A DNA stretch of 64,000 bases, from positions 1,984,001-2,048,000 of the forward strand of contig SDUX01000003.1 in assembly GCA_008729055.1 (NCBI GenBank). The letters run 5' to 3'. A program made the position numbers and the translations under genes. Every line of letters starts with the position of its first letter. Positions within the stretch are counted from its first letter, which is position 1. Below the pieces are notes generated by a model that was not told the origin of the DNA, did not search any database, and saw only the letters and a program-made list of their open reading frames with translations. Shown in pieces: positions 27,001-54,360 of the stretch. Origin of the DNA: Pyropia haitanensis. Taxonomy: Eukaryota; Rhodophyta; Bangiophyceae; Bangiales; Bangiaceae.

Positions 27001-28126
27001 GGCGCTGTCGCTGCTGGAGGTCGTGTTGCGCAAGACGGTGGCGGCGCTCGGGGACGACCACGTCGACGTGTCTACGACGCAGTACGAGATGGCGGTGGTG
27101 CTTCAGCAGCAGGGCAAGCTGGGCGAGGCGCTGTCGCTGCTGGAGGTCGTGTTGCGCAAGAAGGTGGCGGCGCTCGGGGACGACCACGTCGACGTGGCGA
27201 GGACGCAGCACGAGATGGCGTTGGTGCTGCAGCGGCAGGGCAAGCTGAGCGAGGCGCTGTCGCTGCTGGAGGTCGTGTTGCGCAAGAAGGTGGCGGCGCT
27301 CGGGGACAACCACGTCGACGTGTCTACGACGCAGCACGAGATGGCGGTGGTGCTGCAGCGGCAGGGCAAGCTGGGCGAGGCGCTGTCGCTGCTGGAGGTC
27401 GTGCTGCGCAAGACGGTGGCGGCGCTCGGGGACGACCACGTCGACGTGGCGAGGACGCAGCACGGGATGGCGGTGGTGCTTCAGCAGCAGGGCAAGCTGG
27501 GCGAGGCGCTGTCGCTGCTGGAGGTCGTGTTGCGCAAGAAGGTGGCGGCGCTCGGGGACGACCACGTCGACGTGGCGAGGACGCAGCACGAGATGGCGTT
27601 GGTGCTGCAGCGGCAGGGCAAGCTGAGCGAGGCGCTGTCGCTGCTGGAGGTCGTGTTGCGCAAGACGGTGGCGGCGCTCGGGGACGACCACGTCGACGTG
27701 TCTACGACGCAGTACGAGATGGCGGTGGTGCTGCAGCGGCAGGGCAAGCTGGGCGAGGCGCTGTCGCTGCTGGAGGTCGTGCTGCGCAAGACGGTGGCGG
27801 CGCTCGGGGACGACCACGTCGACGTGTCTACGACGCAGTACGTGATGGCGGTGGTGCTTCAGCAGCAGGGCAAGCTGGGCGAGGCGCTGTCGCTGCTGGA
27901 GGTCGTGTTGCGCAAGAAGGTGGCGGCGCTCGGGGACGACCACGTCGACGTGGCGAGGACGCAGCACGAGATGGCGGTGGTGCTGCAGCAGCAGGGCAAG
28001 CTGAGCGAGGCGCTGTCGCTGCTGGAGGTCGTGTTGCGCAAGCAGGTGGCGGCGCTCGGGGACGACCATGTGGACGTGGTGACGACCAAGGATCTGATTA
28101 CCTCATTGCGACGTGATCAGGTATGA
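24020..28126 (+). CDS. Trypsin-like protease / NB-ARC / TPR STAND protein
   Basis: 1368 residues from ATG at 24020 (upstream in-frame codons to 23987 lack an ATG). Residues about 45-235 form a trypsin-like serine protease. His66 lies in TARHVV, Asp115 in LLDAVVVL and Ser198 in GSSGG, so the full triad appears present. An NB-ARC NTPase follows: FVGR near 264, Walker A GLPGVGKSS 290-298, AVWWIRADE near 315, Walker B LLLVFDN near 370-376, GLPL-like GHLPLAI 449-455, and a THRLVSMVAR segment that may serve as the MHD-region equivalent. Residues 730-1359 are 15 near-identical 42-residue TPRs of kinesin-light-chain type. By family knowledge, STAND proteins of this build are sensors: TPRs bind the trigger, NB-ARC oligomerises, the N-terminal effector (here a protease) acts. 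An immune or self-recognition role is inferred. The gene is a single exon of lower GC than its flanks. Confidence 0.9.
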   Translation: MNCEGGASSGRPDDHHKAWMARVLQRQRSVCRVLVGRAGRTTQPKKGTGWVARNDDGMAALVTARHVVAGQLRDGHLDAAGSANFSDGRTVNLSGSRVLEAMAPGVVGHEPVLLDAVVVLLEPGQRFPAPPVPFALLDEADGEVEGSNECTLLHCPDDLADTVVVTPSGRLTPYSGDQAYGPPPWLTHHTAVSASGSSGGMLVDHQCRAFAVHVHRVRHAGVKGAVLLGVLHAALGPSRSPWTGIGPVVDEECVVQLPLRNHAFVGRVVALSGLTQLVQERGQAMVVSTGLPGVGKSSLVLEWAHQRRSSGMYAAVWWIRADELSNASADLLELGTKLGLSLKVVANRPGAEQARYVVLKLPSLIKSGLLLLVFDNVQAYDALKPLVPTASRCRTVFTAQSTEHFPPECVMPLLPFDVTESLLLVQRLMKRSLDEDEQAVAKELCSEVGHLPLAIAQLASHAAKSGDELADVLRSVRRFASEAGPLVRTFDGYAQPHSVIGALRLAQEHLDENSVWTLQRLALLAPDRVPRALLGLGVDTYALGERAMVSTSERGFLSTHRLVSMVARDRMSPACRQRAAEALLTTLWEYTSGFSRSDRSSWDVVKSVAAHAESLLFRWMPDASSVSADVATSWWALVGRLYVYTSFCQYDGPAASRWAALHVKGTAELFPTDAKHILVAARDLIEALRKQLKLDDASIVYDTTINSVLHAETPLLQEDHVDIARMQHEMAQVLQQQGKLGEALSLLEVVLRKKVAALGDDDVDMSTTQYQMAVVLGRQGKLSEALSLLEVVLRKQVAALGDDHVDVATTQYEMAVVLRRQGKLSEALSLLEVVLRKEMAALGDDHVDVSTTQHEMAVVLQRQGKLSEALSLLEVVLRKEMAALGDDHVDVATTQHEMAVVLQRQGKLSEALSLLEVVLRKTVAALGDDHVDVARTQHGMAVVLQQQGKLGEALSLLEVVLRKKVAALGDDHVDVARTQHEMAVVLQQQGKLSEALSLLEVVLRKTVAALGDDHVDVSTTQYEMAVVLQQQGKLGEALSLLEVVLRKKVAALGDDHVDVARTQHEMALVLQRQGKLSEALSLLEVVLRKKVAALGDNHVDVSTTQHEMAVVLQRQGKLGEALSLLEVVLRKTVAALGDDHVDVARTQHGMAVVLQQQGKLGEALSLLEVVLRKKVAALGDDHVDVARTQHEMALVLQRQGKLSEALSLLEVVLRKTVAALGDDHVDVSTTQYEMAVVLQRQGKLGEALSLLEVVLRKTVAALGDDHVDVSTTQYVMAVVLQQQGKLGEALSLLEVVLRKKVAALGDDHVDVARTQHEMAVVLQQQGKLSEALSLLEVVLRKQVAALGDDHVDVVTTKDLITSLRRDQV
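26207..28096 (+). repeat. 15 tandem 126-bp TPR-coding repeats
   Basis: Exactly 15 x 126 bp in frame. Each unit encodes MAVVLQxQGKLxEALSLLEV-type TPR helices plus an AALGDDHVDV linker. Differences between units cluster at a handful of codons (unit positions 3, 6, 7, 12, 25, 26 and 37-42). Units 6, 8, 11 and 14 encode the same protein sequence, and units 8-15 show a three-unit (378-bp) higher-order period. Confidence 0.95.
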
Positions 28127-32152: not shown

Positions 32153-33148
32153 ATGTGCCCGACACTTGGTCTGACCAGTCTTCGCTGCATCGGCGCTATC
32201 CGGATATCGATCCCCGTCGTCTGCTCTGGCGCCTGCTACGCTGAGAGGGCTTGGCATACCTCCGCTTTCCCCTCCTTTTCGTTGCCTTTTTTTTTCTTCA
32301 CCAGCACCCTCTCTCATTCTTTGCCCTCTGTGCCCTCCTTCTCCCCCCCGCTGGCCTGTGTGCCCCCCCGTCATGGCTGCCATGGGTGCTCCCGCGCAGT
32401 CCCCCCCCGGCGGCGACGTGGCACAGCCGCCCACGCCCTCCGCTTAGCGGCTCTGGCGGCGGTCGTTGTCGGTGCGGCGCTGCCGTCCTCCTCCTCTGCC
32501 GCTGCGAACGCGCACGAGGACGAGCCCATCCATACGGTCTCGTACCACTCGGCCATCAAGCTGGCGCACGACCTCACGGGCTTTCGGCTGCACTCGCACG
32601 CGGTCGCGTACGGCTCGGGCTCCCGGCAGCAGTCGGTGACGGGCATGGAGTCGGGGTCGGACGTCAACTCGGTGTGGGTGGTGCGCGCCGCGACCGACGC
32701 GGCGGACCCGGCGGTGGGCACGCCCGTGGCGTGCGGCGCGACCATCCGGCTGATGCACGTCAACACCGCCAAGCACTTGCACACGCACGACCAGCCGGCG
32801 CCAATGGGGCAGGACTGGGAGGTGTCGGCGTTTGCAATGGGCCGCGGCACCGGCGACGGGGACGACGGCCCCAACGGCCGGTGGGCCGACGGCGACCGCG
32901 GCGACGACTGGGTGGTGGTGTGTGAGGGCAAGGCGGGTGAAGACGGCGCGCGGCAGTGGCGGCGGGGGGAGGGCGTGTTTTTGAAGCACGCCGTCAGTGG
33001 GCGGTGGCTGATCACCTCGGCGCGGCACACGTTTGGGGAGCCCGTCTCGGGGCAGCAGATGGTGGCGGCGACCAAGAAGAAGGGGCCCGACGGGCTCTGG
33101 CGGACGGCCGAGGGGGTGTACTTTTCGCCTGCCCACGTGAGCACGTGA
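32153..33148 (+). CDS. SDF2-like MIR-domain protein (secretory pathway)
   Basis: The frame is open from ATG 32153 to the stop at 33146-33148 (331 residues). From about residue 130 it matches the stromal-cell-derived-factor-2 family of three MIR motifs: IKLAHDLTGFRLHSHAVAYG, SGSRQQSVTG, then a second unit with IRLMHVN..LHTH and a third with GVFLKHAVSGRWLI. SDF2 proteins act in the ER lumen with chaperones in protein-folding quality control. A hydrophobic signal-like stretch ALRLAALAAVVVGAAL lies just before the domain. A better start is probably ATG 32373, giving a normal-length leader. It is one base out of frame because of an 8-base C run at 32401-32408, so one C is probably missing from the assembly (or two extra). 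The upstream residues from 32153 look like UTR. The cupin gene downstream is convergent. Confidence 0.88.
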   Translation: MCPTLGLTSLRCIGAIRISIPVVCSGACYAERAWHTSAFPSFSLPFFFFTSTLSHSLPSVPSFSPPLACVPPRHGCHGCSRAVPPRRRRGTAAHALRLAALAAVVVGAALPSSSSAAANAHEDEPIHTVSYHSAIKLAHDLTGFRLHSHAVAYGSGSRQQSVTGMESGSDVNSVWVVRAATDAADPAVGTPVACGATIRLMHVNTAKHLHTHDQPAPMGQDWEVSAFAMGRGTGDGDDGPNGRWADGDRGDDWVVVCEGKAGEDGARQWRRGEGVFLKHAVSGRWLITSARHTFGEPVSGQQMVAATKKKGPDGLWRTAEGVYFSPAHVST

Positions 33149-33625
33149 GGGGCTGCGGTGGTGGCGGCGTGGTGAAGCCCATGAGAGCTGGCAGGTGCGC
33201 CGAGGCCTGAAGGGTCGGTGAGGGTGGTGTAGACTCGGGTGCGGTGAGGGTGGGTGAGGCTGTTACTGGCCCTTGGTTTTGTGCGTGGCAGACGGTCAAT
33301 GGTAATCTGCTCACGAGGTGGCGCACACTGCCAAGACAGCCGCCTGCTCGCACGGCCGACTGGCGCAGGCGTGTAGCTCATGTGTTGGCACTGTGGTTGG
33401 CGAGCACCTCACGCCCACTTGCTCTTGCTTCTCAGTCGTGTAACACCGACAAAGTTGGCTGTTTAGTGGCTTCCTCTCAAAGTGCACCTCCCCCCCCCCG
33501 GGCGCATGCCCTGTCTCGCTCTCCACACGACCGTCCGAGCCATGCCATTCCCTCCTTACCGGTCAGCTCCCCCGTTCCCCACCCCTGCGGGTGAGCCTTG
33601 ACTGGTGGCACGCCCAAGACGGCGC
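33149..33625. other. Intergenic region between convergent genes
   Basis: Shared 3' side of the MIR-domain and cupin genes. Moderate GC. No gene seen. Confidence 0.4.
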
Positions 33626-34255
33626 CTAGTTTCCCATCAGCCGCCCACACATCTGCAGCGCTCGGCGTGGAGGCGCCCCGAGGGCGGCGGCAAGGTCCTC
33701 CGCCGGGGAGTCGCAGAAGCGCGCGCCGACGGTGATCACGCCCGGGTCGGCCGCGCCGAGGACGGCGATGAACTCGCAGCCGCGCCGGCTGACGCACCGC
33801 TGTCCGTGGATGAGGCCTGACGGAAAGACGCCCACCGCCTTTCGGCGGAGGGTATTGGTAATCACCCGCGTCGGCCGGCCGCCGGCCGCGTTTTCCTCGA
33901 CGATGAACACGCGGAGGACGCCGCGGACGAGGTAGAGCGTCTCGGCCGCTCGCGGGTGGATGTGGGGGAGGTTGACGCCGCCGGGGCGCAGCGTCACGCG
34001 CGCAAAGGCGGTGTTCAAGTCGGGCAGGCCCAGCACGGGGTACGTGCTCACCGTGCCGCTGCGGATGGTGCCCGCCGGCTTGTCGGTGCCGCGCATGGCG
34101 CGGGTGTCAATGGCAAAGGCGGCGTCGGGGAAGCGGGAACGCAGAGACTGGGCGGTCGGGATGAGCCCCGCAGGTGGCATGGCGGCGGCACCCGTGGGCA
34201 CCACCACACCGAGGGTAGCGGCGAGGGCTACAATGGCGGCGGTGGCGAAGCCCAT
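33626..34255 (-). CDS. Secreted cupin (germin-like) protein
   Basis: 209 residues from ATG at 34255. Residues 1-25 form a clean signal peptide (hydrophobic, ending in Ala-rich sequence). The cupin fold carries both metal boxes: box 1 LPHIHPRAAE with His98, His100 and Glu105 followed by YLVRG, and box 2 VFPSGLIHGQ with His150. Germin-like cupins are extracellular metal-binding proteins, often manganese, with oxalate-oxidase or superoxide-dismutase activity in plants; the activity here is not known. Length fits the germin family (about 200-220). It is intact and intronless, and convergent with the MIR-domain gene. Its promoter lies in 34256 onward. Confidence 0.92.
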   Translation of the reverse strand: MGFATAAIVALAATLGVVVPTGAAAMPPAGLIPTAQSLRSRFPDAAFAIDTRAMRGTDKPAGTIRSGTVSTYPVLGLPDLNTAFARVTLRPGGVNLPHIHPRAAETLYLVRGVLRVFIVEENAAGGRPTRVITNTLRRKAVGVFPSGLIHGQRCVSRRGCEFIAVLGAADPGVITVGARFCDSPAEDLAAALGAPPRRALQMCGRLMGN

Positions 34256-35616
34256 GATGTCGCAGCTGGGAGAGGGAGGAGGGCGGAGCTCGACTCAGCA
34301 GTGGCAAGGTGAAGGTGTGTGGATGTGTGGGTACGTGGTCGTGTCGTGGGCTGGCTGTCGTGTCAGTCGAGTAGATGCCGCGTTGCGAGGCGGGGGCTTC
34401 TTGCCGTCAAGGCTGCGGTGGTGGATGCTTTATGTAGAGCCCACCGTCGGGATGGTGGTGGCGTATCCCCCCCGACTGTGAGGTACTTGGTCTGACAAAG
34501 GTCGCTCACAGGGGTGCCGCCACTGCACCACTGCAAGGGTGGGCGCGGGGCTCGTCATCCCCCCCCGCGGAGGTGTTCTTTGCGTACTTTCCATCCTGAC
34601 ACGGCGCCATTCGGGTGCACGACAGTAGCCTCGCGGCACCCCCTACGGCGAGCCTCTAGACAGGGGCCGGCGTACAGCACCGGGGTAGCCACCGCCCCCG
34701 ACAGTGAGGCACACACTCTGTAAAGGGTGCTTGCACGGATGGCGCCAGTGCAGCACGATGGAGGCGGGCGCACGAGATGTCATCCCCCCGCTGGACAGCC
34801 CTCGCATGCCCTTCGGGTTGGAATGTACATGCCAGCCTGACACCGCTCCCTTCGCGCGCTTTGTGGGAGCAGGCACCGCCCTCGATGAACACCAGAGCAG
34901 TGCCCAGCGTACATTGCTTGGGGAGCCGACGCGCCCACCCGGGCAGTAGACACTTCTCTGGCCATCAGGTGAGTGTATCCAGCACACCATCAGGGAACCG
35001 AGACACTGTGCGAGTCTGATCCCGTCCTCGAGGCGAGGCGGGCGTGTGCTCGACCGCCTGCCCGGGTCTTTGCCCCCTGCTGTACAGACCGACCGTTGGG
35101 GAGATCACGCGGTACGTATGTACAGTATACTCGCGGTTCCAAGGATGCCAAAAAGCACGCCGAAACGGGCGCCGTCAGTGCGCTGGGTAGCTAGAGCGTT
35201 CACCCTGAGCGGATCGGCTTGTCCGTCTCTTGACAGCGCCCCATTGGTCTCCCGTCTCAGTTGACACCAGGACCTACTGCGCCTCTGCAGGAGCCACAAA
35301 CTGTAGACGCTGTCAACCCTGTAGTGTTCGCCGTGATTTATCTCTCTATTCTTTGTGAATACACCTGTAGTTTGTCACACCACTTGCCTCGAGTCCCTCT
35401 TGTCCAGCCGCACTGTTCGGCTTAAGAGCGGAGGCAACGGTATTACTGCGGTGAGACCGGAGAGCACTGGGTTGGAGCAGTGCATTAGAAAGGCAAGAAA
35501 AGTCCTGCATCTTCACAAGTCCTGATCGTGACAACACCCCGGAACGTTGTCGGACGTGGGCCAATCAGATGGCGGCGGTGGGGGTTTCCCCGCTGTCGGC
35601 ACCTGACTTTTGGGCG
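34256..35616. other. Upstream region of the cupin gene, no gene seen
   Basis: Moderate-GC DNA with the decayed duplication listed separately. Short open frames are not convincing. It ends at the target duplication of the transposon array. Confidence 0.45.
34440..34960. repeat. Decayed ~226-bp tandem duplication
   Basis: GACTGTGAGG at 34474 and GACAGTGAGG at 34700 start two diverged copies. Both contain a CAGTGCAGCAC-like block, a CATCCCCCC block and CCTGACACxGC. A third remnant may follow 34940. Confidence 0.6.
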
Positions 35617-35624
35617 GTTGTGCG
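35617..35624. repeat. Left 8-bp target-site duplication of the transposon array
   Basis: GTTGTGCG, identical to 42799-42806 on the far side of the array. Confidence 0.9.
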
Positions 35625-35647
35625 GGCTCCCGTCCCATGCACACACG
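35625..35647. repeat. Left terminal inverted repeat of copy 1 (23 bp)
   Basis: Exact reverse complement of the last 23 bases of the same copy (37032-37054). The same pair recurs in all five copies. Confidence 0.95.
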
Positions 35648-35751
35648 CGTTCTGAGTTTTGAATAGGACCCTTTAGCTGAAATTTGATTAGCCCTGGACG
35701 AGCTCCCACATTTTCGATACATTTTCAAGTGTTTAGAACACTAGTCAGTAA

Positions 35752-36092
35752 TTTATATAAATACATAAGTTTGCTGTTGTGCTGGGCTTATCAGGCTTTC
35801 TCTTCTATTGATTCCTCTATGCTTGCAGCTGCCGCCCCTTCCGCGTCTGACTGGAGAGGCAGCCTCCGCGCGAGCAGCCGCCGACTGAACCCTTCGGCCG
35901 GTGGTGATGCGGAACGCCGCATTCCAACCCAGCGGTCGCTGATGCGGCCGGCGGGCGACGGCCCCTCCCGCCCCGACCGCGGGTCGCACCTTCCGCCGCC
36001 AGGTACCTCCCACCCGGCACCCAGCGCCACCCGCTCGCAGCCCCCGCCGCCCTCTCCCAGCTCGCAACCCCGCCACCAGTCCATTTAATAAA
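35752..36092 (+). promoter_or_regulatory. TATA-like box and poly(A) signal inside each element copy (copy 1 shown)
   Basis: A palindromic TTTATATAAA at 35752-35761 is followed about 330 bp later by AATAAA at 36087-36092. This could frame a short transcript. A 90-codon frame from ATG 35819 lies between them but resembles nothing known. The layout repeats every 1436 bp in the array. Confidence 0.35.
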
Positions 36093-39000
36093 CACCAGTC
36101 TCCGGGATGGTCTGAGGTCACCACTCCCCAGCTAGCGCACACTCCCTCATTTGCCGCCGTTGGCTCCCGCCGTTAGCCCCTCCCCGCGCCTGCAGCTGCC
36201 GCCGACGCAGGCGGACGCTCTCCGCGGGCTCAGATCTCTCCCCCCACCCGCATACACTTCCTCCCGACGCTATCCCCCAATCCCTCTGTTAGTGGCCGCC
36301 GACCACCACCAGCCGCCAGCGCGACGGGCGCACACCCTCCACCGGCCGGCAACCGCTGCCGCGCCTGCGGCCACTGGCGACCACCCTTACTACTTTCTAT
36401 CCCCGCTGCGAGCTTTGGCAGCGGCATTCAGTCGCCCCGATCCGGCCGGCGCCGACCTTTCCGACAGTGGAGGCCGCGGCCCGCCACCAACAACAACCCC
36501 CGCCGGCAGCTGCTGCCCCCGGCCGCCAACCGCGAGCGCTACCGACACCCAATTTTTCCATTGGCCGGCGGCCGCCTGCCAGCCTGTGGGCGCTGCTAGC
36601 CGTCACCAGACTTTTTCCCTTTGGCAGACTGCCGTCGCAGCCGGCGGACGCCCCCAACCGGCGAGTGTCCTCACCGCATCATCTACACCACAACCAGTAT
36701 TTATATCCATGACAAATTGAAAGCCCAGAAGTGGAACATCTGCAGTCCCCTCGCGTTCCAAAGTACGTCCGTCCAACAGCTAACACTGCAAAAGGTCTCC
36801 GCCTATCTCAGTTTTGAAGTGATCTTTCACAAAGCTTGACAGTCATCGAAAACAGCTGTAAGTTGTGTATCCCAGATGTTCTACTGGCTGATGCTGTTTC
36901 AAGCCCGAGCGCTGTGCGCCGCTACATACAGGCTGCGGCAGAGAGCGGTCGACAGCTTGCGCCCCCATCCATCAGTTACACCACGCATCGTCCCCTCCTT
37001 GACTTCTATTGGTGGGGTGAAACCGGGCCCTCGTGTGTGCATGGGACGGGAGCCGTTGTGGGCTCCCGTCCCATGCACACACGCGTTCTGAGTTTTGAAT
37101 AGGACCCTTTAGCTGAAATTTGATTAGCCCTGGACGAGCTCCCACATTTTCGATACATTTTCAAGTGTTTAGAACACTAGTCAGTAATTTATATAAATAC
37201 ATAAGTTTGCTGTTGTGCTGGGCTTATCAGGCTTTCTCTTCTATTGATTCCTCTATGCTTGCAGCTGCCGCCCCTTCCGCGTCTGACTGGAGAGGCAGCC
37301 TCCGCGCGAGCAGCCGCCGACTGAACCCTTCGGCCGGTGGTGATGCGGAACGCCGCATTCCAACCCAGCGGTCGCTGATGCGGCCGGCGGGCGACGGCCC
37401 CTCCCGCCCCGACCGCGGGTCGCACCTTCCGCCGCCAGGTACCTCCCACCCGGCACCCAGCGCCACCCGCTCGCAGCCCCCGCCGCCCTCTCCCAGCTCG
37501 CAACCCCGCCACCAGTCCATTTAATAAACACCAGTCTCCGGGATGGTCTGAGGTCACCACTCCCCAGCTAGCGCACACTCCCTCATTTGCCGCCGTTGGC
37601 TCCCGCCGTTAGCCCCTCCCCGCGCCTGCAGCTGCCGCCGACGCAGGCGGACGCTCTCCGCGGGCTCAGATCTCTCCCCCCACCCGCATACACTTCCTCC
37701 CGACGCTATCCCCCAATCCCTCTGTTAGTGGCCGCCGACCACCACCAGCCGCCAGCGCGACGGGCGCACACCCTCCACCGGCCGGCAACCGCTGCCGCGC
37801 CTGCGGCCACTGGCGACCACCCTTACTACTTTCTATCCCCGCTGCGAGCTTTGGCAGCGGCATTCAGTCGCCCCGATCCGGCCGGCGCCGACCTTTCCGA
37901 CAGTGGAGGCCGCGGCCCGCCACCAACAACAACCCCCGCCGGCAGCTGCTGCCCCCGGCCGCCAACCGCGAGCGCTACCGACACCCAATTTTTCCATTGG
38001 CCGGCGGCCGCCTGCCAGCCTGTGGGCGCTGCTAGCCGTCACCAGACTTTTTCCCTTTGGCAGACTGCCGTCGCAGCCGGCGGACGCCCCCAACCGGCGA
38101 GTGTCCTCACCGCATCATCTACACCACAACCAGTATTTATATCCATGACAAATTGAAAGCCCAGAAGTGGAACATCTGCAGTCCCCTCGCGTTCCAAAGT
38201 ACGTCCGTCCAACAGCTAACACTGCAAAAGGTCTCCGCCTATCTCAGTTTTGAAGTGATCTTTCACAAAGCTTGACAGTCATCGAAAACAGCTGTAAGTT
38301 GTGTATCCCAGATGTTCTACTGGCTGATGCTGTTTCAAGCCCGAGCGCTGTGCGCCGCTACATACAGGCTGCGGCAGAGAGCGGTCGACAGCTTGCGCCC
38401 CCATCCATCAGTTACACCACGCATCGTCCCCTCCTTGACTTCTATTGGTGGGGTGAAACCGGGCCCTCGTGTGTGCATGGGACGGGAGCCGTTGTGGGCT
38501 CCCGTCCCATGCACACACGCGTTCTGAGTTTTGAATAGGACCCTTTAGCTGAAATTTGATTAGCCCTGGACGAGCTCCCACATTTTCGATACATTTTCAA
38601 GTGTTTAGAACACTAGTCAGTAATTTATATAAATACATAAGTTTGCTGTTGTGCTGGGCTTATCAGGCTTTCTCTTCTATTGATTCCTCTATGCTTGCAG
38701 CTGCCGCCCCTTCCGCGTCTGACTGGAGAGGCAGCCTCCGCGCGAGCAGCCGCCGACTGAACCCTTCGGCCGGTGGTGATGCGGAACGCCGCATTCCAAC
38801 CCAGCGGTCGCTGATGCGGCCGGCGGGCGACGGCCCCTCCCGCCCCGACCGCGGGTCGCACCTTCCGCCGCCAGGTACCTCCCACCCGGCACCCAGCGCC
38901 ACCCGCTCGCAGCCCCCGCCGCCCTCTCCCAGCTCGCAACCCCGCCACCAGTCCATTTAATAAACACCAGTCTCCGGGATGGTCTGAGGTCACCACTCCC

Positions 39001-42000
39001 CAGCTAGCGCACACTCCCTCATTTGCCGCCGTTGGCTCCCGCCGTTAGCCCCTCCCCGCGCCTGCAGCTGCCGCCGACGCAGGCGGACGCTCTCCGCGGG
39101 CTCAGATCTCTCCCCCCACCCGCATACACTTCCTCCCGACGCTATCCCCCAATCCCTCTGTTAGTGGCCGCCGACCACCACCAGCCGCCAGCGCGACGGG
39201 CGCACACCCTCCACCGGCCGGCAACCGCTGCCGCGCCTGCGGCCACTGGCGACCACCCTTACTACTTTCTATCCCCGCTGCGAGCTTTGGCAGCGGCATT
39301 CAGTCGCCCCGATCCGGCCGGCGCCGACCTTTCCGACAGTGGAGGCCGCGGCCCGCCACCAACAACAACCCCCGCCGGCAGCTGCTGCCCCCGGCCGCCA
39401 ACCGCGAGCGCTACCGACACCCAATTTTTCCATTGGCCGGCGGCCGCCTGCCAGCCTGTGGGCGCTGCTAGCCGTCACCAGACTTTTTCCCTTTGGCAGA
39501 CTGCCGTCGCAGCCGGCGGACGCCCCCAACCGGCGAGTGTCCTCACCGCATCATCTACACCACAACCAGTATTTATATCCATGACAAATTGAAAGCCCAG
39601 AAGTGGAACATCTGCAGTCCCCTCGCGTTCCAAAGTACGTCCGTCCAACAGCTAACACTGCAAAAGGTCTCCGCCTATCTCAGTTTTGAAGTGATCTTTC
39701 ACAAAGCTTGACAGTCATCGAAAACAGCTGTAAGTTGTGTATCCCAGATGTTCTACTGGCTGATGCTGTTTCAAGCCCGAGCGCTGTGCGCCGCTACATA
39801 CAGGCTGCGGCAGAGAGCGGTCGACAGCTTGCGCCCCCATCCATCAGTTACACCACGCATCGTCCCCTCCTTGACTTCTATTGGTGGGGTGAAACCGGGC
39901 CCTCGTGTGTGCATGGGACGGGAGCCGTTGTGGGCTCCCGTCCCATGCACACACGCGTTCTGAGTTTTGAATAGGACCCTTTAGCTGAAATTTGATTAGC
40001 CCTGGACGAGCTCCCACATTTTCGATACATTTTCAAGTGTTTAGAACACTAGTCAGTAATTTATATAAATACATAAGTTTGCTGTTGTGCTGGGCTTATC
40101 AGGCTTTCTCTTCTATTGATTCCTCTATGCTTGCAGCTGCCGCCCCTTCCGCGTCTGACTGGAGAGGCAGCCTCCGCGCGAGCAGCCGCCGACTGAACCC
40201 TTCGGCCGGTGGTGATGCGGAACGCCGCATTCCAACCCAGCGGTCGCTGATGCGGCCGGCGGGCGACGGCCCCTCCCGCCCCGACCGCGGGTCGCACCTT
40301 CCGCCGCCAGGTACCTCCCACCCGGCACCCAGCGCCACCCGCTCGCAGCCCCCGCCGCCCTCTCCCAGCTCGCAACCCCGCCACCAGTCCATTTAATAAA
40401 CACCAGTCTCCGGGATGGTCTGAGGTCACCACTCCCCAGCTAGCGCACACTCCCTCATTTGCCGCCGTTGGCTCCCGCCGTTAGCCCCTCCCCGCGCCTG
40501 CAGCTGCCGCCGACGCAGGCGGACGCTCTCCGCGGGCTCAGATCTCTCCCCCCACCCGCATACACTTCCTCCCGACGCTATCCCCCAATCCCTCTGTTAG
40601 TGGCCGCCGACCACCACCAGCCGCCAGCGCGACGGGCGCACACCCTCCACCGGCCGGCAACCGCTGCCGCGCCTGCGGCCACTGGCGACCACCCTTACTA
40701 CTTTCTATCCCCGCTGCGAGCTTTGGCAGCGGCATTCAGTCGCCCCGATCCGGCCGGCGCCGACCTTTCCGACAGTGGAGGCCGCGGCCCGCCACCAACA
40801 ACAACCCCCGCCGGCAGCTGCTGCCCCCGGCCGCCAACCGCGAGCGCTACCGACACCCAATTTTTCCATTGGCCGGCGGCCGCCTGCCAGCCTGTGGGCG
40901 CTGCTAGCCGTCACCAGACTTTTTCCCTTTGGCAGACTGCCGTCGCAGCCGGCGGACGCCCCCAACCGGCGAGTGTCCTCACCGCATCATCTACACCACA
41001 ACCAGTATTTATATCCATGACAAATTGAAAGCCCAGAAGTGGAACATCTGCAGTCCCCTCGCGTTCCAAAGTACGTCCGTCCAACAGCTAACACTGCAAA
41101 AGGTCTCCGCCTATCTCAGTTTTGAAGTGATCTTTCACAAAGCTTGACAGTCATCGAAAACAGCTGTAAGTTGTGTATCCCAGATGTTCTACTGGCTGAT
41201 GCTGTTTCAAGCCCGAGCGCTGTGCGCCGCTACATACAGGCTGCGGCAGAGAGCGGTCGACAGCTTGCGCCCCCATCCATCAGTTACACCACGCATCGTC
41301 CCCTCCTTGACTTCTATTGGTGGGGTGAAACCGGGCCCTCGTGTGTGCATGGGACGGGAGCCGTTGTGGGCTCCCGTCCCATGCACACACGCGTTCTGAG
41401 TTTTGAATAGGACCCTTTAGCTGAAATTTGATTAGCCCTGGACGAGCTCCCACATTTTCGATACATTTTCAAGTGTTTAGAACACTAGTCAGTAATTTAT
41501 ATAAATACATAAGTTTGCTGTTGTGCTGGGCTTATCAGGCTTTCTCTTCTATTGATTCCTCTATGCTTGCAGCTGCCGCCCCTTCCGCGTCTGACTGGAG
41601 AGGCAGCCTCCGCGCGAGCAGCCGCCGACTGAACCCTTCGGCCGGTGGTGATGCGGAACGCCGCATTCCAACCCAGCGGTCGCTGATGCGGCCGGCGGGC
41701 GACGGCCCCTCCCGCCCCGACCGCGGGTCGCACCTTCCGCCGCCAGGTACCTCCCACCCGGCACCCAGCGCCACCCGCTCGCAGCCCCCGCCGCCCTCTC
41801 CCAGCTCGCAACCCCGCCACCAGTCCATTTAATAAACACCAGTCTCCGGGATGGTCTGAGGTCACCACTCCCCAGCTAGCGCACACTCCCTCATTTGCCG
41901 CCGTTGGCTCCCGCCGTTAGCCCCTCCCCGCGCCTGCAGCTGCCGCCGACGCAGGCGGACGCTCTCCGCGGGCTCAGATCTCTCCCCCCACCCGCATACA

Positions 42001-42798
42001 CTTCCTCCCGACGCTATCCCCCAATCCCTCTGTTAGTGGCCGCCGACCACCACCAGCCGCCAGCGCGACGGGCGCACACCCTCCACCGGCCGGCAACCGC
42101 TGCCGCGCCTGCGGCCACTGGCGACCACCCTTACTACTTTCTATCCCCGCTGCGAGCTTTGGCAGCGGCATTCAGTCGCCCCGATCCGGCCGGCGCCGAC
42201 CTTTCCGACAGTGGAGGCCGCGGCCCGCCACCAACAACAACCCCCGCCGGCAGCTGCTGCCCCCGGCCGCCAACCGCGAGCGCTACCGACACCCAATTTT
42301 TCCATTGGCCGGCGGCCGCCTGCCAGCCTGTGGGCGCTGCTAGCCGTCACCAGACTTTTTCCCTTTGGCAGACTGCCGTCGCAGCCGGCGGACGCCCCCA
42401 ACCGGCGAGTGTCCTCACCGCATCATCTACACCACAACCAGTATTTATATCCATGACAAATTGAAAGCCCAGAAGTGGAACATCTGCAGTCCCCTCGCGT
42501 TCCAAAGTACGTCCGTCCAACAGCTAACACTGCAAAAGGTCTCCGCCTATCTCAGTTTTGAAGTGATCTTTCACAAAGCTTGACAGTCATCGAAAACAGC
42601 TGTAAGTTGTGTATCCCAGATGTTCTACTGGCTGATGCTGTTTCAAGCCCGAGCGCTGTGCGCCGCTACATACAGGCTGCGGCAGAGAGCGGTCGACAGC
42701 TTGCGCCCCCATCCATCAGTTACACCACGCATCGTCCCCTCCTTGACTTCTATTGGTGGGGTGAAACCGGGCCCTCGTGTGTGCATGGGACGGGAGCC

Positions 42799-42806
42799 GT
42801 TGTGCG
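42799..42806. repeat. Right 8-bp target-site duplication of the transposon array
   Basis: GTTGTGCG, matching 35617-35624. Confidence 0.9.
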
Positions 42807-42825
42807 CGCTGCTGCGCGGTTTTCC

Positions 42826-42953
42826 GGTGACGACGCTTCCTCCCGCGCGGGAGGGGGCGGCTACGACTTGGGCGGCCCCCTGGGGGCGCCCAGGGGGAGC
42901 TGAGCCGCAGCTGGCGGCGGGGCTGGCTTCGTGGTGACGGCGCTTCCTCCCGC
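42826..42953. repeat. Short imperfect direct duplication next to the array
   Basis: GGTGACGACGCTTCCTCCCG (42826-42845) recurs at 42933-42952 with one change (A to G). Confidence 0.7.
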
Positions 42954-45145
42954 ACCGGCCGCCCCCGACGCACCGGTACCGCCCGCCGCCGACGGCGGGG
43001 TGCCACCACCCGCCGACGCCACTGCTGACGCGGCGGCGGCGCCGGCACTGGCGGGCGGGGACGCGGTGGCGGTGAAGGCGGCCGCGGCCGTGGCGGCGGC
43101 GGCCACCCCCGTGGTGGCTGCTGCCGGTGGGGGTGGGGAGGCGGTGGGGGCGGCCGCCTCCGGCGCCGACAGCCTGGTGCCTGCCGCCGTCGCGGCCGTC
43201 CCCGCTGCCGCTGCCCCCGCCGTGGGCGCCCCCGCGGAGGCCACTGGAGATACGGCGGGGGCGGCGGGGTCGGCGGCGGGGGCGCTTCTGGCGGCGGCAG
43301 CCTCCACCCCGCCCGTGCCCGTCGGCCTGCCGCTACCGGCGGTGGGCGGGGCGCCCGCCGACGGCGGTGGGGCGGACCGGGCAGGTGGGGTGCCGGGGGG
43401 GGTGGGGGGTGGGGGGCGGGGGCTGCCCGTGCTGCTGCCGCCCGCGCCCGCGACGGCGGCTGCGCCGGCAGTGACGGCGGCGGCAGTCCCCACCGTGGCC
43501 GCCGTTCCGGCGGTGGCGGCCCCTATGGCGGCCGCCCCCGCCGTGGCAGACCCGGCGGCGGCCGCGCCCGTCGCGGCGGACCCCGCAGCAGCCGTGCCCG
43601 CGGCGGCAGACCCCACGGCGACCGTTGCGCCCGCGACGGCAGACCGTCTGGGGGCCGTCGCGCCCGCGGTGGCAGACCCCACGGCCGCCGCCTCTGTGGC
43701 GGCAGACCCCTTGGCCGCCGCTCCCGTGGCGGCAGACCCCCTGGCGGCGGCCGTTGCGCAGGCGGTGGCAGACCCCCTGACGGCGGCCGCTCCTCTCCTC
43801 CTCCCATATGGCACGACGGCCGGGGCGGTGGCGGCGGCGGGCGGGGCAGTGCCACCCCCGCCGGCGGGCCTGCTGTCGTCAGTGGACGCTGCCGCGGCGG
43901 CGGGGACCACAGGGGGGGCGGCGCTGCCGCCGGGCGTGCCGCTGCCGCCGCCGCCGCCGATGGGCCTGCCGCCACCAACGGCGGGCGGCCCCACCGGGTT
44001 GGGGGGCGGGGGCGGCGCCGGGCCGCCGCCGCCGCTGGCGGAGGTGGTGGCGGGCGCAGCGGCACCCGCCGCGGGCTTGCCGCCAGCGCCCGTGCTCGCC
44101 GCCGCCGCCGTCCCGGGCGTGCGCGAGCCGGTGGTGGCGGTGGCGGGCTCGCCGTCGGAGGGCGTCGGGCAGGTGGCGCACCTGGCGGGGCTGGGCGAGC
44201 CACTTCCGCTGGTGGCCTGCCCGTCGGGCCGCCCCCGCCCACCGCCGCGCCGCCGCTGGTGGGAGCACCCGGGGAGGGAGCGCCCTCCCCGCCCCCCCTG
44301 GCCGGCACCACGCCTGCCTGTCCGCCCCCGCCCGCACTCCCGCCCCCGCCCCCGCTCCCGCCCCCGCCCGTGTGGCTCCCCACCCTCGCGGGGGACCCGT
44401 CCGGGCGGGGGCCCCTCGGCCTGGGAGGGGGGCCCCTCCCCCCCGCGCCCGTCCCTGCCTGGGCGGGGGATGCGGCGACGGGGGGGGGGGGCGGTGCCCC
44501 GCCGCCCACGGCGTTGGCCATCCCCCCGCCGCCCCCCCCCGCCGGCGCCTGACGGCGGCACCGTCTTTGCCGCCCCGCCTCGCTCGCGTGGCCCGCGCGG
44601 TGCGGGGCGGTGCCGCCCCGCCGTCACCGTCGGCGCCATTGGTATGGGCGACCCCCTCCCCGGCGGGGCTGCCGCCCACCCCCCCCTCCCCTCCCCCCCC
44701 GCCGCCCGCGCCCTGCCTCTCCAACGCCACCCACTGTGCGTGCGCGTCGTCGCAGCGCCCGCGGGACGGCTGCATGGTCCCCGTTGGGGAGGTGGGCCCC
44801 CCCCGCGCCGACGACGCGGATGATGGCGGCGGCGGCGGTGGCGGCGGCGGCGGCGGCGGCGAGGCGGCGCTCGTCGCGTGCGTCCGCTCCCGCTGTGAGC
44901 CCCGCTACTGGTGCTCGTGTGGGGGAGCGGGGCTGTGTGTGCGCGGCACGGTGCGGTCGGTGCTGGTAGCGGTAGGGGGGGGAGGAGGGGGGGGGGTCCC
45001 GGGGGCGGGAAGGGGGTGGTGGGGGTGGGGGGCGCGCCGCCGCGTGTACGCGCGTGCGGCTGCCCGGGGGGGGGCTGCCGCAGCTGACGTTGGTGGGGCC
45101 CCTCGCTGGAGGGGAAGGGGGGAGGGGCGGGGGGCGGGTGGATGA
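42904..45145 (+). CDS. Hypothetical Ala/Pro-rich, Cys-containing protein, frame-broken
   Basis: The plus strand is open from 42904 (after a TGA at 42901) and carries a degenerate repeat of about 11 residues, xVADPxAAAPVAADP, in 43530-43790. Near 44230 the protein-like frame shifts by one, reading Pro/Gly-rich sequence to about 44550. It shifts again to a Cys-rich segment near 44720-44960 (LSNATHCACASSQRPRDGC, then CVRSRCEPRYWCSCGGAGLC). All three joins fall in C or G runs, so assembly indels are likely, though introns are possible. There is no ATG at the 5' end (first start-like codon is GTG at 42931), so the beginning may have been separated by the neighbouring transposon array. The overall build suggests a secreted wall or matrix protein. 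The minus strand is also open across much of it. Confidence 0.35.
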
Positions 45146-46173: not shown

Positions 46174-46694
46174 TGTGACAAACCCCGAATCTGGGTTTGA
46201 ATATTCGGAGCAAGTGGCTCAGAATTGAGATTGGATTTCACCCGACCGATGAGTGAAATATTCCGATTTCAGCTCGAAATTCCGACTGGGACTTTCGGCA
46301 CCCCATTTGCAGAGTATTGCAGTGGTTCGTATCTTGGGGATTTTTGCGCGGGAGCCAGACGGATTTCTACGCTTGCTTGCTTTGATTGTGGAGCCTTTTT
46401 ATTGGGTGGTCTGAGTGTTCATTTTTTGCGTGTTTTGCGAGGGGTGTGCGCGCGCATGCGTGCACACGAGGGGTTATATGCGCGGGACAGCAAGGCGGGG
46501 AGGGCCCCCCTTGGCTGCCAAGTAAACTCCGTCTGGCTCCGACACATCTTGTTCGTGCCTTGGCGAGTCGGCCACTCGTCACACGCAAGTCGCGTGTTGG
46601 TGTTGCACGGGTTGCTTCCGGTGTTCCAAGTTGGGACCCGAGCGTGCGTGTTCCGCCCCCACAAGTTGTGGGTCGGCGTAGCCGTACTGCTACA
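46174..46694 (+). repeat. 5' LTR (521 bp)
   Basis: Starts TGTGACAAAC, ends GCTACA. Matches 54361-54881 throughout by eye. Confidence 0.95.
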
Positions 46695-46696
46695 GT

Positions 46697-46714
46697 TGGT
46701 GGATCAGCGGGGGA
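46697..46714 (+). other. Candidate primer-binding site
   Basis: TGGTGGATCAGCGGGGGA begins two bases after the LTR. It would pair with a tRNA ending in ...CCGCTGATCCACCA. It does not match the usual initiator-Met site (TGGTATCAGAGC). The tRNA identity cannot be named from the sequence alone. Confidence 0.55.
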
Positions 46715-47001
46715 GAGGACATCGACTCGGAGTCCCCTCCTTTGGTGAGGAAACTGAGTTGGTTTCTCTCCCCCTTCGGCACCGTGACTTCGGGCCGTCT
46801 CATCGACTCCCCCTCGTACTCCGAGGTTCGCGGGGCGACAAGGTGAGCGTCCGGAGTTCGGACGGGGACACGGAGTAACGACCCCTCACCGCTTTCGTCG
46901 CGTAAGCGGAGGGGTGGTTGTGTTCCGTGCTCCCACGCCGACGATCCCCGACTCTGGGCACCGTAACGTCATTTTGGTGACTCAACTCGAGTCCCGGAGT
47001 G

Positions 47002-48762
47002 ATGGCGGGCGCGGAAGACTCTCCCGCCGCGCCGTTTGTACCTGGGGAGGGGGAGCGGACGCGTCCCCCTTTGGGCGGAGTACCCCCCAGGACGGGCAGC
47101 GTGGATGAGTCGGGTCGCCAGGGGCGACCCCCTCGGCGTTCGGCCAGGTTCCGACCTACGCCATCCTCCGTCGACTCGAGCGGAGGTCGCCCTCCTCCGG
47201 CGGGTGTGCCGAGCCAGACTCCGGCTCAGGTGCCCCTACCGGAGGACGATGACACTCTCTTCGGCACGGGACTGCCGGCCTTGGGTGCTGGGGGCAGAGG
47301 CTCCGTACCCCGGGACGGCGAGTCCGCGCCCCCTTTGGTTCCGAAAGGACCGGGCGGTAGCTCAAGTCGAGCTCCGCCGGGGTCCACCGGGAGCCTGGAT
47401 GCCAGTGTGGTGACAGCCATCGCACAAGTTGTGCGTGAGGAGGTGGGGCGGGCGCTACAGGAAAAGTCTCCTGCGCCTGGGCAGGCCTCCCGGCATGAGC
47501 GGCGTGGGGAGCAAGTTGCTCCCCGCCGAGAGTACCGTTCTCGTTCGCCTGCCCACTCGGGCGAGGCGTCGAGTGGGGAGGAGGCCGTCCGACATGGACG
47601 GCAGGAGCCACGGGATCGTCCCAAAGTCCGGGAGATTCCCAAAAAGATCGTGGTTAACAATCCTCTATACGCGGACGTCTTCGACTGTGAGACGTACGCG
47701 TTGGTCAACAAGTCGGTGACCTACACGAACCGCCAGGCCCATACTCTGGGCCGGCGCAAGAAGGACGTGGCTCAGTCCTTTGGGGTCCGGTCTGAGTGGG
47801 ACGGGACCCCGCCACTGAAGGTCTTCCAGTTTTTGCGTAAGTTCGCAAAAGCCTGTGATGACAATGATGTCTCTGAAGCAGAGGCGTTCTTCATGCTTCA
47901 GGACTTCACCAAGGAGCCACTCCGCTCCGAGGTGATGAGCGTCATGCCAAGTCGGCATGGCGGCAACCCCGGTGAGGTCTCCTCCTACTTGGAGTTGATC
48001 AACTGGGTGTTGCGCTACCACGCGGACGAGGCGTCTCTCGCCGCGCAGGTAGAGGAGTTTAATCGTGCCACCCAGAGTGAGGGTGAGGACGAGCGGACGT
48101 TCGCTGAGAGACTCCGTCAGCTAAACGTCCTATGTGGATTTATTCATCCACAAGGCGTCATCAAAGGGCGTTTTGTGGAGGGTGTCCACCGTTCCGCTCG
48201 CGCGACTGTGCGCGAGCGCAACACGCCTGGCATGACGCTGGCCGAGTTGGCCCGCGTCGCCCAAACCAAGGGTGAAGAGTACCGTTGGATCGTGTCTGAC
48301 CAACGGAAGGAGAGAGAGAAGGAGACTAAGAGCGCGGAGGCGACTCGCCTTCGTCGCGCGGCCAGGGCGGCCCAGTACCCTCGGGTACGCCCGGCTGTGG
48401 CAGCTACCTCAACTCAAGAGGAAGCTGCTGTCGTGGCGGCCATCCCGGAAACTCCCCAGGGAAAGGCGACGCCACCGACATCAAAGAGCGACCGGCCGTG
48501 TTGGCAGTGCTCGAAGACGGGTCACTGGGCGTCTCAGTGCCCCGCCTTGGACTCGCGTCTGCGAGCCATCTTGGCTCGCAGCATGAGTCTTGGAACCCGG
48601 GGAACTCCCCCGAGTTCCCGCTCCAACCCAACTCGGGTTGGTGCCATCACCCAACAGGGGCCGGAGGGGACTGACAAGAGTCTTGAGGAGGGGGAGGCAC
48701 CCACCTCAAGCTCGAGTGAGAGTACCCCGTCCTCATCCGACTCGGGTGAGGGAAACGCCTAG
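47002..48762 (+). CDS. gag: Gag polyprotein of the gypsy element
   Basis: 586 residues from ATG 47002 (a GTG directly before it is not needed). The N-terminal third is Pro/Ser/Arg-rich. Residues about 270-440 form a retrotransposon gag domain, with a helical FQFLRKFAKACDDNDVSEAE stretch and an EDERTFAERLRQLN segment. A single CCHC zinc knuckle CWQCSKTGHWASQC lies near residue 500, for RNA binding and packaging. The stop TAG at 48760-48762 follows directly after a frameshift heptamer. Gag forms the virus-like particle in which reverse transcription occurs. Confidence 0.93.
   Translation: MAGAEDSPAAPFVPGEGERTRPPLGGVPPRTGSVDESGRQGRPPRRSARFRPTPSSVDSSGGRPPPAGVPSQTPAQVPLPEDDDTLFGTGLPALGAGGRGSVPRDGESAPPLVPKGPGGSSSRAPPGSTGSLDASVVTAIAQVVREEVGRALQEKSPAPGQASRHERRGEQVAPRREYRSRSPAHSGEASSGEEAVRHGRQEPRDRPKVREIPKKIVVNNPLYADVFDCETYALVNKSVTYTNRQAHTLGRRKKDVAQSFGVRSEWDGTPPLKVFQFLRKFAKACDDNDVSEAEAFFMLQDFTKEPLRSEVMSVMPSRHGGNPGEVSSYLELINWVLRYHADEASLAAQVEEFNRATQSEGEDERTFAERLRQLNVLCGFIHPQGVIKGRFVEGVHRSARATVRERNTPGMTLAELARVAQTKGEEYRWIVSDQRKEREKETKSAEATRLRRAARAAQYPRVRPAVAATSTQEEAAVVAAIPETPQGKATPPTSKSDRPCWQCSKTGHWASQCPALDSRLRAILARSMSLGTRGTPPSSRSNPTRVGAITQQGPEGTDKSLEEGEAPTSSSSESTPSSSDSGEGNA
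48750..48756 (+). promoter_or_regulatory. -1 programmed ribosomal frameshift slippery site
   Basis: G GGA AAC in the gag frame (codons GGA 48751-48753 and AAC 48754-48756) fits X XXY YYZ exactly. The pol frame is closed by TGA at 48747-48749 just upstream and opens only at this heptamer. Two codons later gag stops. A stem GCCGCTGG (48762-48769) with TCGGCGGC (48792-48799, two G-U pairs) begins 5 nt downstream. Loop bases TTGACC (48777-48782) can pair with GGTCAA (48801-48806), a possible pseudoknot. Confidence 0.8.
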
Positions 48763-51700
48763 CCGCTGGAGTCGAGTTGACCCCACAGACCTCGGCGGCA
48801 GGTCAAGGGGAACTTCACCCGACACCAACTCATGGGCGGGTGAAGCTCTTACAACGCCCTCGAGGGGTGAGACCTCAAGGCAAGGCCCCCTCGCAGCGAT
48901 ACGACCCAAGTCGGATCGTATCTGTCTTGGTAGGGAGTAACTACCAAGTCGCAGCCAGACTTTGGCTGTACGATGGGTACGAGTTCGCTTCCCGTGTCAT
49001 AGTCGACACGGGTTCGCCGGTATCCCTCATCAGGCAAGAGTTGTTGCCTGAGGGAGTCGAGGTGAGTCAAGTTGACCGCTCGACATGGCGTATGTTTGAT
49101 GTCAATGGGGGACTCCTCCCCATTGTGGGTTCAATCGCATTGAGTGTATGCATTGGGTCATACCAGACTGAGGTGACCTTTGGGGTTGTACCACGCATGT
49201 CGGTCCCAGTACTCCTGGGTACCGACTACGTGGACACGCACGTACCCGAAGTCCGGGGACCCGAAGGGTTTATTCGTATGCTCAATGGGGAAACTGTCCC
49301 CATCTTGCGTAAAGGGGCCACTGTCTCCCCGAAGACTCCCAAGGCACGGGAGAGTCCTCGTAAGACAGATGGCAACACTGAGTCGGTGCATGTGCTCAAG
49401 GGAGTGTGCATTCCTCCCCGGTCGAGGACGTATGTACGAGTTCGTACATCGTTTAAGGGAAATGGGTTTGTATTCCCCCTCGACAAGACGTATGAGAAGC
49501 ACCAGGTGCAAGTTGCACCTGGACCCATGACTTGTGGGACTGACCAGACCTGGGTCGTCGAGGTCCTCAACGTGTCGAAGACTTCTCGACGCATCCCCCG
49601 TGGGATGAAGATTGCGAGCATCTCCACCCACGAGGGGAATGTCACCGCTGTGACTCAACAGCAGTGGAAGGCGATGGAGGAGAAGACTCCCTTTCCTCCG
49701 GACCCAAAGCCGTCGGCAGACTCGCCGACGGTGCATCGGGAAAATGTCCCGAAGTGCCTGCATGATCGCTTGGATAAACTCATCCAACAGCACCACAAGT
49801 TGTGGAATGGTGACCTTGGACTCATCAAGGCCACTGAACACAGAATCGTGTTGAAGCCTGGGGTCAAGCCAGTCCGCTTGAACCCCTACCGTATGGGCCC
49901 TGCCTCTCGGGAACTTACCCGGAAGCAGGTCCAACGGATGAAGGACCTTGGGGTCATTGAGCCAAGCTCAGGCGAGTGGGCCAGCCCCATAGTCCTGGTG
50001 CCCAAACCCGACGGCACCATGCGGTTTTGCATTGACTACCGCAAGTTAAACGAACGGACGGTAAAGGACAGATACCCTTTACCCCGTATGGACGATTGCC
50101 TCGACTCACTTGGTGAGGCAAAGTTCTTCTCCACGTTGGACTGCAACGCGGGGTACTGGCAGATCCCCATACGTAAGGAGGATCGGCCACGCACGGCCTT
50201 CACGTGTCACTGTGGAGTTTATCAGTGCGTGAGGTTGCCGTTTGGGCTATGCAATGCACCTGCGACTTTCCAGCGTGCTATTGACATGATACTTGCCGGA
50301 GTCAAATGGCAGTATGCCCTCGTCTATCTCGACGACATTATTGTGTTCTCCGGAACTGCCGAAGAACACTTGTCCCACTTGGACAATGTGTTCACCCTGC
50401 TGAGTAGGGCAGGAGTGACACTGAAGCCAGCCAAGTGCCACCTCTTCAGTAACGAGGTGGCCTACCTAGGTCATGTGGTTCGACCAGGTAGCATCAGTGT
50501 CAACGAGAAAAACCTCGTGGCACTGCGTCGGGCAAGTTACCCCTTGACGCAGACACAGCTCAGGAGTTTTCTGGGCATGTGCAATGTGTACAGACGCTTC
50601 ACGGCAAACTTTGCCAAAGTGTCTGCACCCTTGAACCGCTTGGTAAGTCCCAAGCGGCCCAAGCGCCTCGACCCTCCGACCCAAGAGGAGCGAGAAGCGT
50701 TTGAGAGGTTGAAAGAACTTCTTTGCAACCCGCCGGTGTTGGCCATACCCAGACTCGGGGGCCACTACATCATAGATGTGGACGCGAGTTACGACCAACT
50801 TGGTTGTTGCTTGCTCCAGCAACAGACCACGGGCGAGTACCTGCCCGTGGGCTACTACAGTAAGGGCCTGTCCCCGGCACAGAAGAACTACACTGTGACG
50901 GAGCTGGAAGGCCTGGGCGTAGTATGGGCAGTCACCATGCTACGACCCTACATCGAAGGAGGGAGGTTCCTCGTTCGATGTGATCACCGAGCCCTGAAGT
51001 GGATACTTACCACTACAGCGTGCTCGAATAATCGACTCAATCGATGGCGACTTCGCCTCGCTGAGTTTGACTTCGACGTTGAGTATAGGTCGGGTCAAAA
51101 GCACGCGGTTGCGGACGCGATGTCTCGCATACCGACGGATGGGTACGACTCAGTACCCATCCCAGAGGAAATCCCTCATGTGGGAGTCACAACACGGTCA
51201 GGGTCAGTACTCGACCCGAGGCGGCCGGAGATGGCCCGCCTCCTACCCCTGCCTAAGGACAAACTCGTCCAGGCACAAGAGTCTGACAAACTCTGTCAGC
51301 AACTCAAGAAGGAGTTGGACAGTCCCGAACCAACTCGGTTTTTCTTGAGTGAAGACGGCATTTTATGCCGGCGGGGACATACCCAAGGAGAACAACAAGT
51401 TGTTGTTCCCGAGAGTCTGAGGAAGGACATCCTCCAACGGGAACACTCTTCACCGTTGGGTGCCCACCCAGGGTCGACCAAGTTGTATCAGACCCTGAGA
51501 AAAAAATATTATTGGCCATCACTTGTGGCTGATGTGTATGGGCATGTGGCCTCGTGCGCGACTTGCGCACAGAACCGACTCATGGAGGCCAGAGAGACGT
51601 CCACTATGCGCCTCTTCCCTGCGACGGAGCCGTTCGCAGCGATTGCTGTGGACCTACTTGGTCCACTGCCTCGGACACCAGAAGGGTATGAGTACCTTCT

Positions 51701-54347: not shown

Positions 54348-54360
54348 GAGGAGGGGGAAA
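54348..54360 (+). other. Polypurine tract of the gypsy element
   Basis: GAGGAGGGGGAAA directly before the 3' LTR; expected primer for plus-strand DNA synthesis. Confidence 0.9.

Follow-up and report, generated by a model that had tools for sequence, protein, structure and literature searches.

Tandem arrays of a MITE-like transposon in Pyropia haitanensis, joined by six of the eight bases of their own target duplication

The five-copy array

The window analysed here, a stretch of 64,000 nucleotides of Pyropia haitanensis DNA with a G+C content of 71% (C2:1984001-2048000), contains at positions 35617-42806 five units of 1430 bp arranged head to tail inside one 8-bp target duplication (Table 1). 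All five copies carry perfect 23-bp terminal inverted repeats (TIRs) of sequence GGCTCCCGTCCCATGCACACACG, and the terminal sequence of the family at the element ends is GGCTCCCGTCCC. An earlier note on this DNA had given the coordinates, the unit length, the TIRs and the copy number correctly to the base, and the outer duplication that it reported, GTTGTGCG, is indeed present on both edges of the array. It had also described the copies as joined head to tail and the duplication as confined to the outer edges; the copies do not abut directly, and the second statement does not hold. Each of the four joints holds the six bases GTTGTG, which are bases 1-6 of the eight-base duplication, and the repeat period of the array is 1436 bp (the 1430-bp unit plus the 6-bp joint). 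Units 2-5 show 0 differences from unit 1 in all four comparisons, in agreement with the very recent origin that had been proposed for the array.

The three open reading frames (ORFs) of the 1430-bp unit (129-189 aa) gave no Pfam match at E<=1, which bears out the view of the earlier note that no transposase is encoded by the unit. An Rfam scan of window positions 33000-45000 returned no match. The window also encodes a quinone-reductase-like protein sharing 83% identity with a protein of Pyropia vietnamensis, its nearest named relative in that search, which places the host among the Bangiales red algae.

Table 1. Organization of the transposon array, in window positions
Feature	Positions	Strand	Remarks
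Left 8-bp target-site duplication GTTGTGCG	35617..35624	.	
Transposon copy 1, L to R, 1430 bp	35625..37054	+	L TIR 35625-35647, R TIR 37032-37054
Joint 1, GTTGTG	37055..37060	.	Duplication bases 1-6
Transposon copy 2	37061..38490	+	Identical to copy 1
Joint 2, GTTGTG	38491..38496	.	
Transposon copy 3	38497..39926	+	Identical to copy 1
Joint 3, GTTGTG	39927..39932	.	
Transposon copy 4	39933..41362	+	Identical to copy 1
Joint 4, GTTGTG	41363..41368	.	
Transposon copy 5	41369..42798	+	Identical to copy 1; R TIR 42776-42798
Right 8-bp target-site duplication GTTGTGCG	42799..42806	.	

Genome-wide survey

The genome surveyed comprises 52.9 Mb in 136 contigs. The exact TIR occurs in it 126 times (61 + 65), against 0 + 0 for a reversed control pattern; a tolerant search gave 155 matches, and TIRs with two mismatches were taken from 100 of these 155, among the matches listed. 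Joints were sought with two patterns. The first, an R-end TIR followed by 0-30 bases and an L-end TIR, returned 26 joints, and the second, tolerant at two TIR positions, returned 28; both controls gave 0. Since the spacer in the second search was allowed to range from 0 to 25 bp, the length of 6 bp was not imposed by the pattern. In the array on contig C4, two additional joints were recognized in which the adjacent TIR carries an indel. Because the reversed and control patterns gave 0, chance can be excluded as the origin of the TIRs and of the joints.

In total, the survey amounts to 30 joints in ten arrays holding 40 copies, with 2-12 copies per array; the whole analysis was made from assembled sequence, and the copy numbers of the arrays may be wrong. 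The arrays are found on contigs C2 (5 copies, the array of the window), C3 (3 copies), C4 (12 copies), C8 (2 copies of a 5.1-kb relative), C9 (two arrays, of 3 and 2 copies), C10 (two arrays, of 2 and 4 copies) and C11 (two arrays, of 2 and 5 copies). The nine arrays outside the window are tandem relatives of the kind for which the earlier note had proposed to search the genome, together with single copies flanked by 8-bp duplications and an autonomous partner with a transposase. The comparisons below cover all ten arrays, flanks included, and 28 single copies in which both termini could be recognised; the one-ended loci L047, L049, L051, L053 and L055 stand outside these 28.

Single copies and longer members

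A perfect 8-bp duplication flanks 25 of the 28 single copies (24/27, plus an 11.7-kb element on contig C1), the three others being L054, L062 and L069, and single copies of the expected form are thus present. This frequency establishes that the integration stagger is eight; the spacing of six is something different and belongs to the places where one end has been joined to another. On account of its TIRs, its fixed 8-bp duplication at independent sites and the lack of a transposase match, the element is a non-autonomous TIR DNA transposon of MITE-like type and of ordinary appearance.

Longer members of the family were also encountered. The 5.1-kb member L038 has 17 listed ORFs of 150 aa or longer, and the 9 of them that were scanned gave no Pfam match; its sequence matches the other 5.1-kb copies (L039, L040 and the pair on C8) along their whole length. 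On these grounds, the 5.1-kb members were not retained as the autonomous partner. The 11.7-kb member (C1:751087) carries a reverse-transcriptase ORF (RVT_2), apparently belonging to a nested copia-type retrotransposon.

The six-of-eight joint

The ends were told apart by a simple rule: in the short units, L is the TIR followed by CGTT and R is the TIR preceded by CCCT, while the 5.1-kb members were oriented by their R-end 233 bp, which are 87% like those of the unit. Read in this orientation, all ten arrays have the common form TSD(1-8)-L==R-TSD(1-6)-L==R-...-TSD(1-8). The outer 8-bp duplications are perfect in all ten and differ from locus to locus: GTTGTGCG (C2), TACTCGAA, GCTCGGTA, CTTGGAAT, TTCGTGGG, CCGAGGGA, GTGGGCGC, CTTCCGCC, GCGGCGGC and GCCCGTTG. 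In every array (10/10), the joint consists of bases 1-6 of the duplication of its own locus, and the two absent bases are always those adjoining the L end, including in the 5.1-kb relative. The joint is exactly 6 bp long in 28 of 30 cases; the two joints of 7 bp both lie in the C4 array, amid homopolymer indels.

Five of the arrays lie on the + strand and five on the - strand, and the polarity of the joint is therefore a property of the element. Joints inside one array are not independent, so that the evidence has the weight of ten events rather than thirty; under a coin toss, the one-sidedness observed in 10/10 arrays has a probability of 0.002. Five arrays show no microhomology at all at the breakpoint; in the other five it amounts to 1-3 bases, summed over both sides, and the breakpoint can be slid by as many bases; none of the arrays contradicts the reading of six bases.

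Identity of the copies and age of the arrays

Copies are identical within the array in all eight short-unit arrays other than that of C4, and the nearest copy elsewhere, defined by the fewest substitutions, differs from them by 1-23. This within-array comparison covers the short-unit arrays except for one of the 12 C4 copies, which is split over two pieces; the C8 pair of 5.1 kb was compared separately and shows 0 mismatches and 3 gap bases. For the C4 array the count of substitutions reached 14, and true divergence was considered as their source and rejected: they are confined to 2 of the 11 copies and lie beside indels. The remaining variable columns of this array are gaps, mostly of single bases in homopolymers, and two copies have a shifted alignment. 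Such scattered gaps look like uncorrected long-read noise, and since the copies differ in their homopolymer indels they were apparently read separately, which suggests that the C4 copies were sequenced as distinct units.

The formation of the arrays is recent. They were built where they stand, by the joining of copies at fixed positions and without consistent microhomology, because every joint consists of bases of the duplication at its own locus and an imported multimer would have brought those of its donor. The earlier note had left two origins side by side. Amplification in place agrees with joints drawn from the local duplication in 10/10 arrays; insertion of a multimer, for which donor-derived joints are expected, does not. 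The observation itself was confirmed, and the interpretation attached to it is partly supported, being half right.

Search for a transposase

No clear autonomous partner with a transposase was found in the genome. Searches of the whole genome for MULE by its domain PF10551 and for the Merlin domain DDE_Tnp_IS1595 (PF12762) gave 0 matches each. Three other types are represented: KDZ (10 genome matches, the nearest 40 kb away among the TIRs listed), hAT (12 matches, the nearest 104 kb away among the TIRs listed) and Tnp2 (16 matches). Examples of the KDZ and hAT elements are situated around C6:2485808, C10:3693601, C11:7215812, C2:2066787 and C9:415728. Of these 38 matches, a single one, a Tnp2 piece at C6:3249922, lies within 39 kb of a TIR among those listed. 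The piece is decayed and carries stops. It is situated 2.4 kb to the inside of a perfectly matching L end (C6:3247551), the first 244 bp of which share 86% similarity with the unit. The search for an R end beside it found none, and it is therefore only a lead. When the 233 bp of the R end served as query in a DNA search, C6 was absent among the 40 scored of 90 candidates, and a protein search with the Tnp2 piece returned two short unnamed relatives. A peptide can be read at the R end of the element; a Pfam scan of it at E<=10 gave nothing, and it was not regarded as coding sequence, many of its residues differing, by eye, between sub-families.

The length of the target duplication offers another guide. 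Zisupton/KDZ and hAT elements are given 8-bp duplications and Tnp2 relatives 2-5 bp (PMC12730594). By this measure KDZ (Zisupton) and hAT both fit the element, and CACTA/Plavaka (Tnp2) does not, 2-5 bp being expected against the 8 bp found here.

Origin of the arrays

We consider it probable that each array arose from a single insertion followed by multiplication in place, through a transposase that joins the element ends asymmetrically in a copy-out-like manner. In the first step of bacterial copy-out/paste-in transposition, a freed 3' end attacks the flank of the other terminus and leaves a short bridge. By this scheme, one insertion of the element would make the 8-bp duplication, after which cleavage precisely at the border of the element would free the 3' end at L for transfer to the flank 6 nt outside the R terminus of a sister copy. 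Joining of sister copies just after replication would yield a dimer R-(bases 1-6)-L inside the original duplication. Joining within one copy would instead lead, by way of a figure-eight, to a circle bridged by 6 bp, and such a circle could alternatively recombine with the donor to produce the same head-to-tail dimer. More rounds, or unequal exchange, might then bring an array to 3-12 copies. A transposase is to be expected here, rather than slippage or end-joining, because the breakpoints at the L edge and at six bases beyond R are constant across independent events; by analogy with bacterial elements, we infer that it would form the joint through a strand transfer of the copy-out type, L acting as donor and R as recipient. 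Several points run counter to this explanation: the genome gave no match to an IS256-like (MULE, PF10551) transposase, two joints measure 7 bp and the breakpoint can be slid in five arrays. Moreover, in ISCth4/IS256 either end serves as donor and spacers vary, in contrast to the single end and single length that predominate here. A broader proposition is that the element belongs to a replicative copy-out/paste-in family of eukaryotic TIR transposons, in which circles with a 6-bp bridge would be pasted as single copies and the arrays would be the fossil record of the process. We advance it tentatively and regard it, on balance, as slightly doubtful.

Among the other explanations, the one that survives best relies on cut-and-paste transposition, with sister repair of the excision gap slipping between the duplications, or on replication slippage at hairpin-forming TIRs. 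Both gap repair and template switching occur frequently, would require no new transposase chemistry, would also draw on the local duplication and would leave the copies of an array identical, as observed. Joints of 8 bp or of variable length are predicted by such routes, however, against the 6 bp found in 28/30 joints with the same side missing in 10/10 arrays, and half of the arrays show no breakpoint microhomology at all; we judge this origin unlikely. Repeated local re-insertion of excised copies, at or beside the duplication of a resident copy, has precedents in that some transposons are generally known to jump over short distances and to insert in their own termini. IR-targeting by IS30 is a further one (PMC9333248). 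Insertion in the duplication would leave an 8-bp joint, and at a target displaced by two bases it would either add bases at the termini or alter the outer duplication; the perfect outer duplications and intact ends of all ten arrays make this course of events very unlikely.

A ready-made multimer inserted at each site, such as a rolling-circle product or a circular multimer, would account for a single outer duplication enclosing several identical copies and is scarcely credible in view of joints that match the local duplication in 10/10 arrays and differ between arrays, where a donor-derived joint is expected. Equally hard to believe is an assembly artefact multiplying one real copy per site: identical tandem copies are error-prone in assemblies and copy numbers may suffer from it, but an assembler has no reason to create the same six-of-eight joint at ten loci, and the C4 copies carry different homopolymer indels, as if read separately.

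Comparison with known systems

Eukaryotic TIR transposons are generally assumed to move by cut and paste, with the timing of replication or the repair of gaps as their only means of gaining copies. Neither of these routes predicts that ten loci should share a fixed, one-sided joint of six of eight bases. Such a joint is a fingerprint of mechanism, and it agrees with the asymmetric strand transfer known from copy-out elements of bacteria. To our knowledge, a comparable fixed asymmetric signature is known only in bacterial insertion sequences; a literature search, with most subscription papers beyond its reach, found no report of such a joint for a eukaryotic TIR transposon. Direct copy-out by a eukaryotic DNA transposon thereby becomes directly testable and, if the copy-out reading is true, the pathway of many bacterial insertion sequences would also work in a nucleus. 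By this route whole transposons would become arrays resembling satellites, and the joint, as a record of their origin, can be searched for in other genomes.

Prudhomme reportedly described circles and tandem dimers of IS256 in 2002. The IS256-family element ISCth4 produced 8-bp duplications in 5/5 integration events; its recovered junction spacers measure 6-8 bp, a 6-bp junction integrates best and either end can be the donor (PMC7780238). The element described here resembles ISCth4/IS256 in its 8-bp duplication, its flank-derived bridge of about 6 bp and its asymmetric joining, and differs from these bacterial elements, which have their own transposase, in being nuclear, non-autonomous and of one polarity. 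Membership of the IS256/Mutator family is not supported, because no such transposase was found (PF10551, 0 genome matches); by analogy, the element would nonetheless work like a copy-out element.

IS30 forms tandem dimers when an end of one copy is joined to an end of another, and according to its authors this can probably happen on partially replicated DNA as well (PMC9333248). Head-to-tail copies produced by the joining of the ends of two copies are the feature that the present arrays would share with (IS30)2, whose spacing is 2 bp and whose dimers are described as unstable on high-copy plasmids, whereas here the spacing is 6 bp and up to 12 copies persist. In IS2, of the IS3 family, one end is the exclusive recipient in the first step (PMC3299598). 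This fixed polarity is found in our element too, unlike the 1-bp junction spacer and the different transposase family of IS2. Merlin elements have termini GG..CC and 8-9-bp duplications (PMC8101967), and the element observed here resembles them in its GG termini and its 8-bp duplication; the genome, however, gave no DDE_Tnp_IS1595 match, and arrays of this kind go unmentioned for Merlin in the accessible part of that paper. Zisupton/KDZ and hAT elements share the 8-bp duplication, and both transposase types are present in the genome, but none of their matches falls within 39 kb among the TIRs listed.

Tandem Helitrons also form arrays, and Helitrons have neither TIRs nor target duplications. 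Together with Tetris, they resemble the present family as mobile elements that yield tandem arrays. In Tetris satellites, the accessible text describes arrays that repeat an internal 220-bp piece of the element (PMC4079207), whereas in the arrays reported here whole elements are repeated, linked by a joint derived from the target duplication.

Long family members and transposase genes

The 11.7-kb member on C1 is an element of the 5.1-kb type within which an RVT_2 retrotransposon, apparently copia-type, is nested, and the 8-bp duplication ACCCGCAC is unbroken at its outer edges. Internal repeats are abundant in the long, non-autonomous (5.1-kb) members; many overlapping self-like matches are found inside the one-end locus L051 and likewise between the two tandem copies on C8.

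On C6, an exact L end of the family is followed inward by a decayed Tnp2-like gene. Relatives of the N-terminus of this gene lie at the start of three longer reading frames, C8:3218010, C7:3528001 and C126:71663, which are open for 972-1141 aa. Three of the KDZ transposase matches have equal scores and open frames of equal length (1315 aa), and so probably represent a KDZ family that was recently active.

Other features of the window

The Gypsy-type element, which has RT, RNase H and integrase domains and two identical LTRs of 522 bp (46174-46695 and 54361-54882), with GGTG at either flank, is a further very recent insertion. The minisatellite comprises about 71 repeats with 97% matches. In the 1379-aa open frame, a trypsin-like domain is accompanied by a long TPR array coded by about 15 tandem copies of a 126-bp repeat that are 93% alike.

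Coordinates of the features, in the window or in the contig or fetched locus named
Feature	Location	Strand	Details
Gypsy-type LTR retrotransposon	window 46174-54882		two LTRs, GGTG flanks, coding domains
Minisatellite	window 20017-20654		unit AGTGGCGGT
ORF, 1379 aa	window 23987-28126	+	trypsin-like domain, TPR array
5.1-kb member	L038 540-5682		non-autonomous
11.7-kb member of TIR transposon family	C1:751087-762785		L036/L037
Decayed Tnp2-like gene	L053 2200-2571; L070 (C6:3249199-3250500)		
KDZ transposase matches	C6:2485808, C10:3693601, C11:7215812		n = 3
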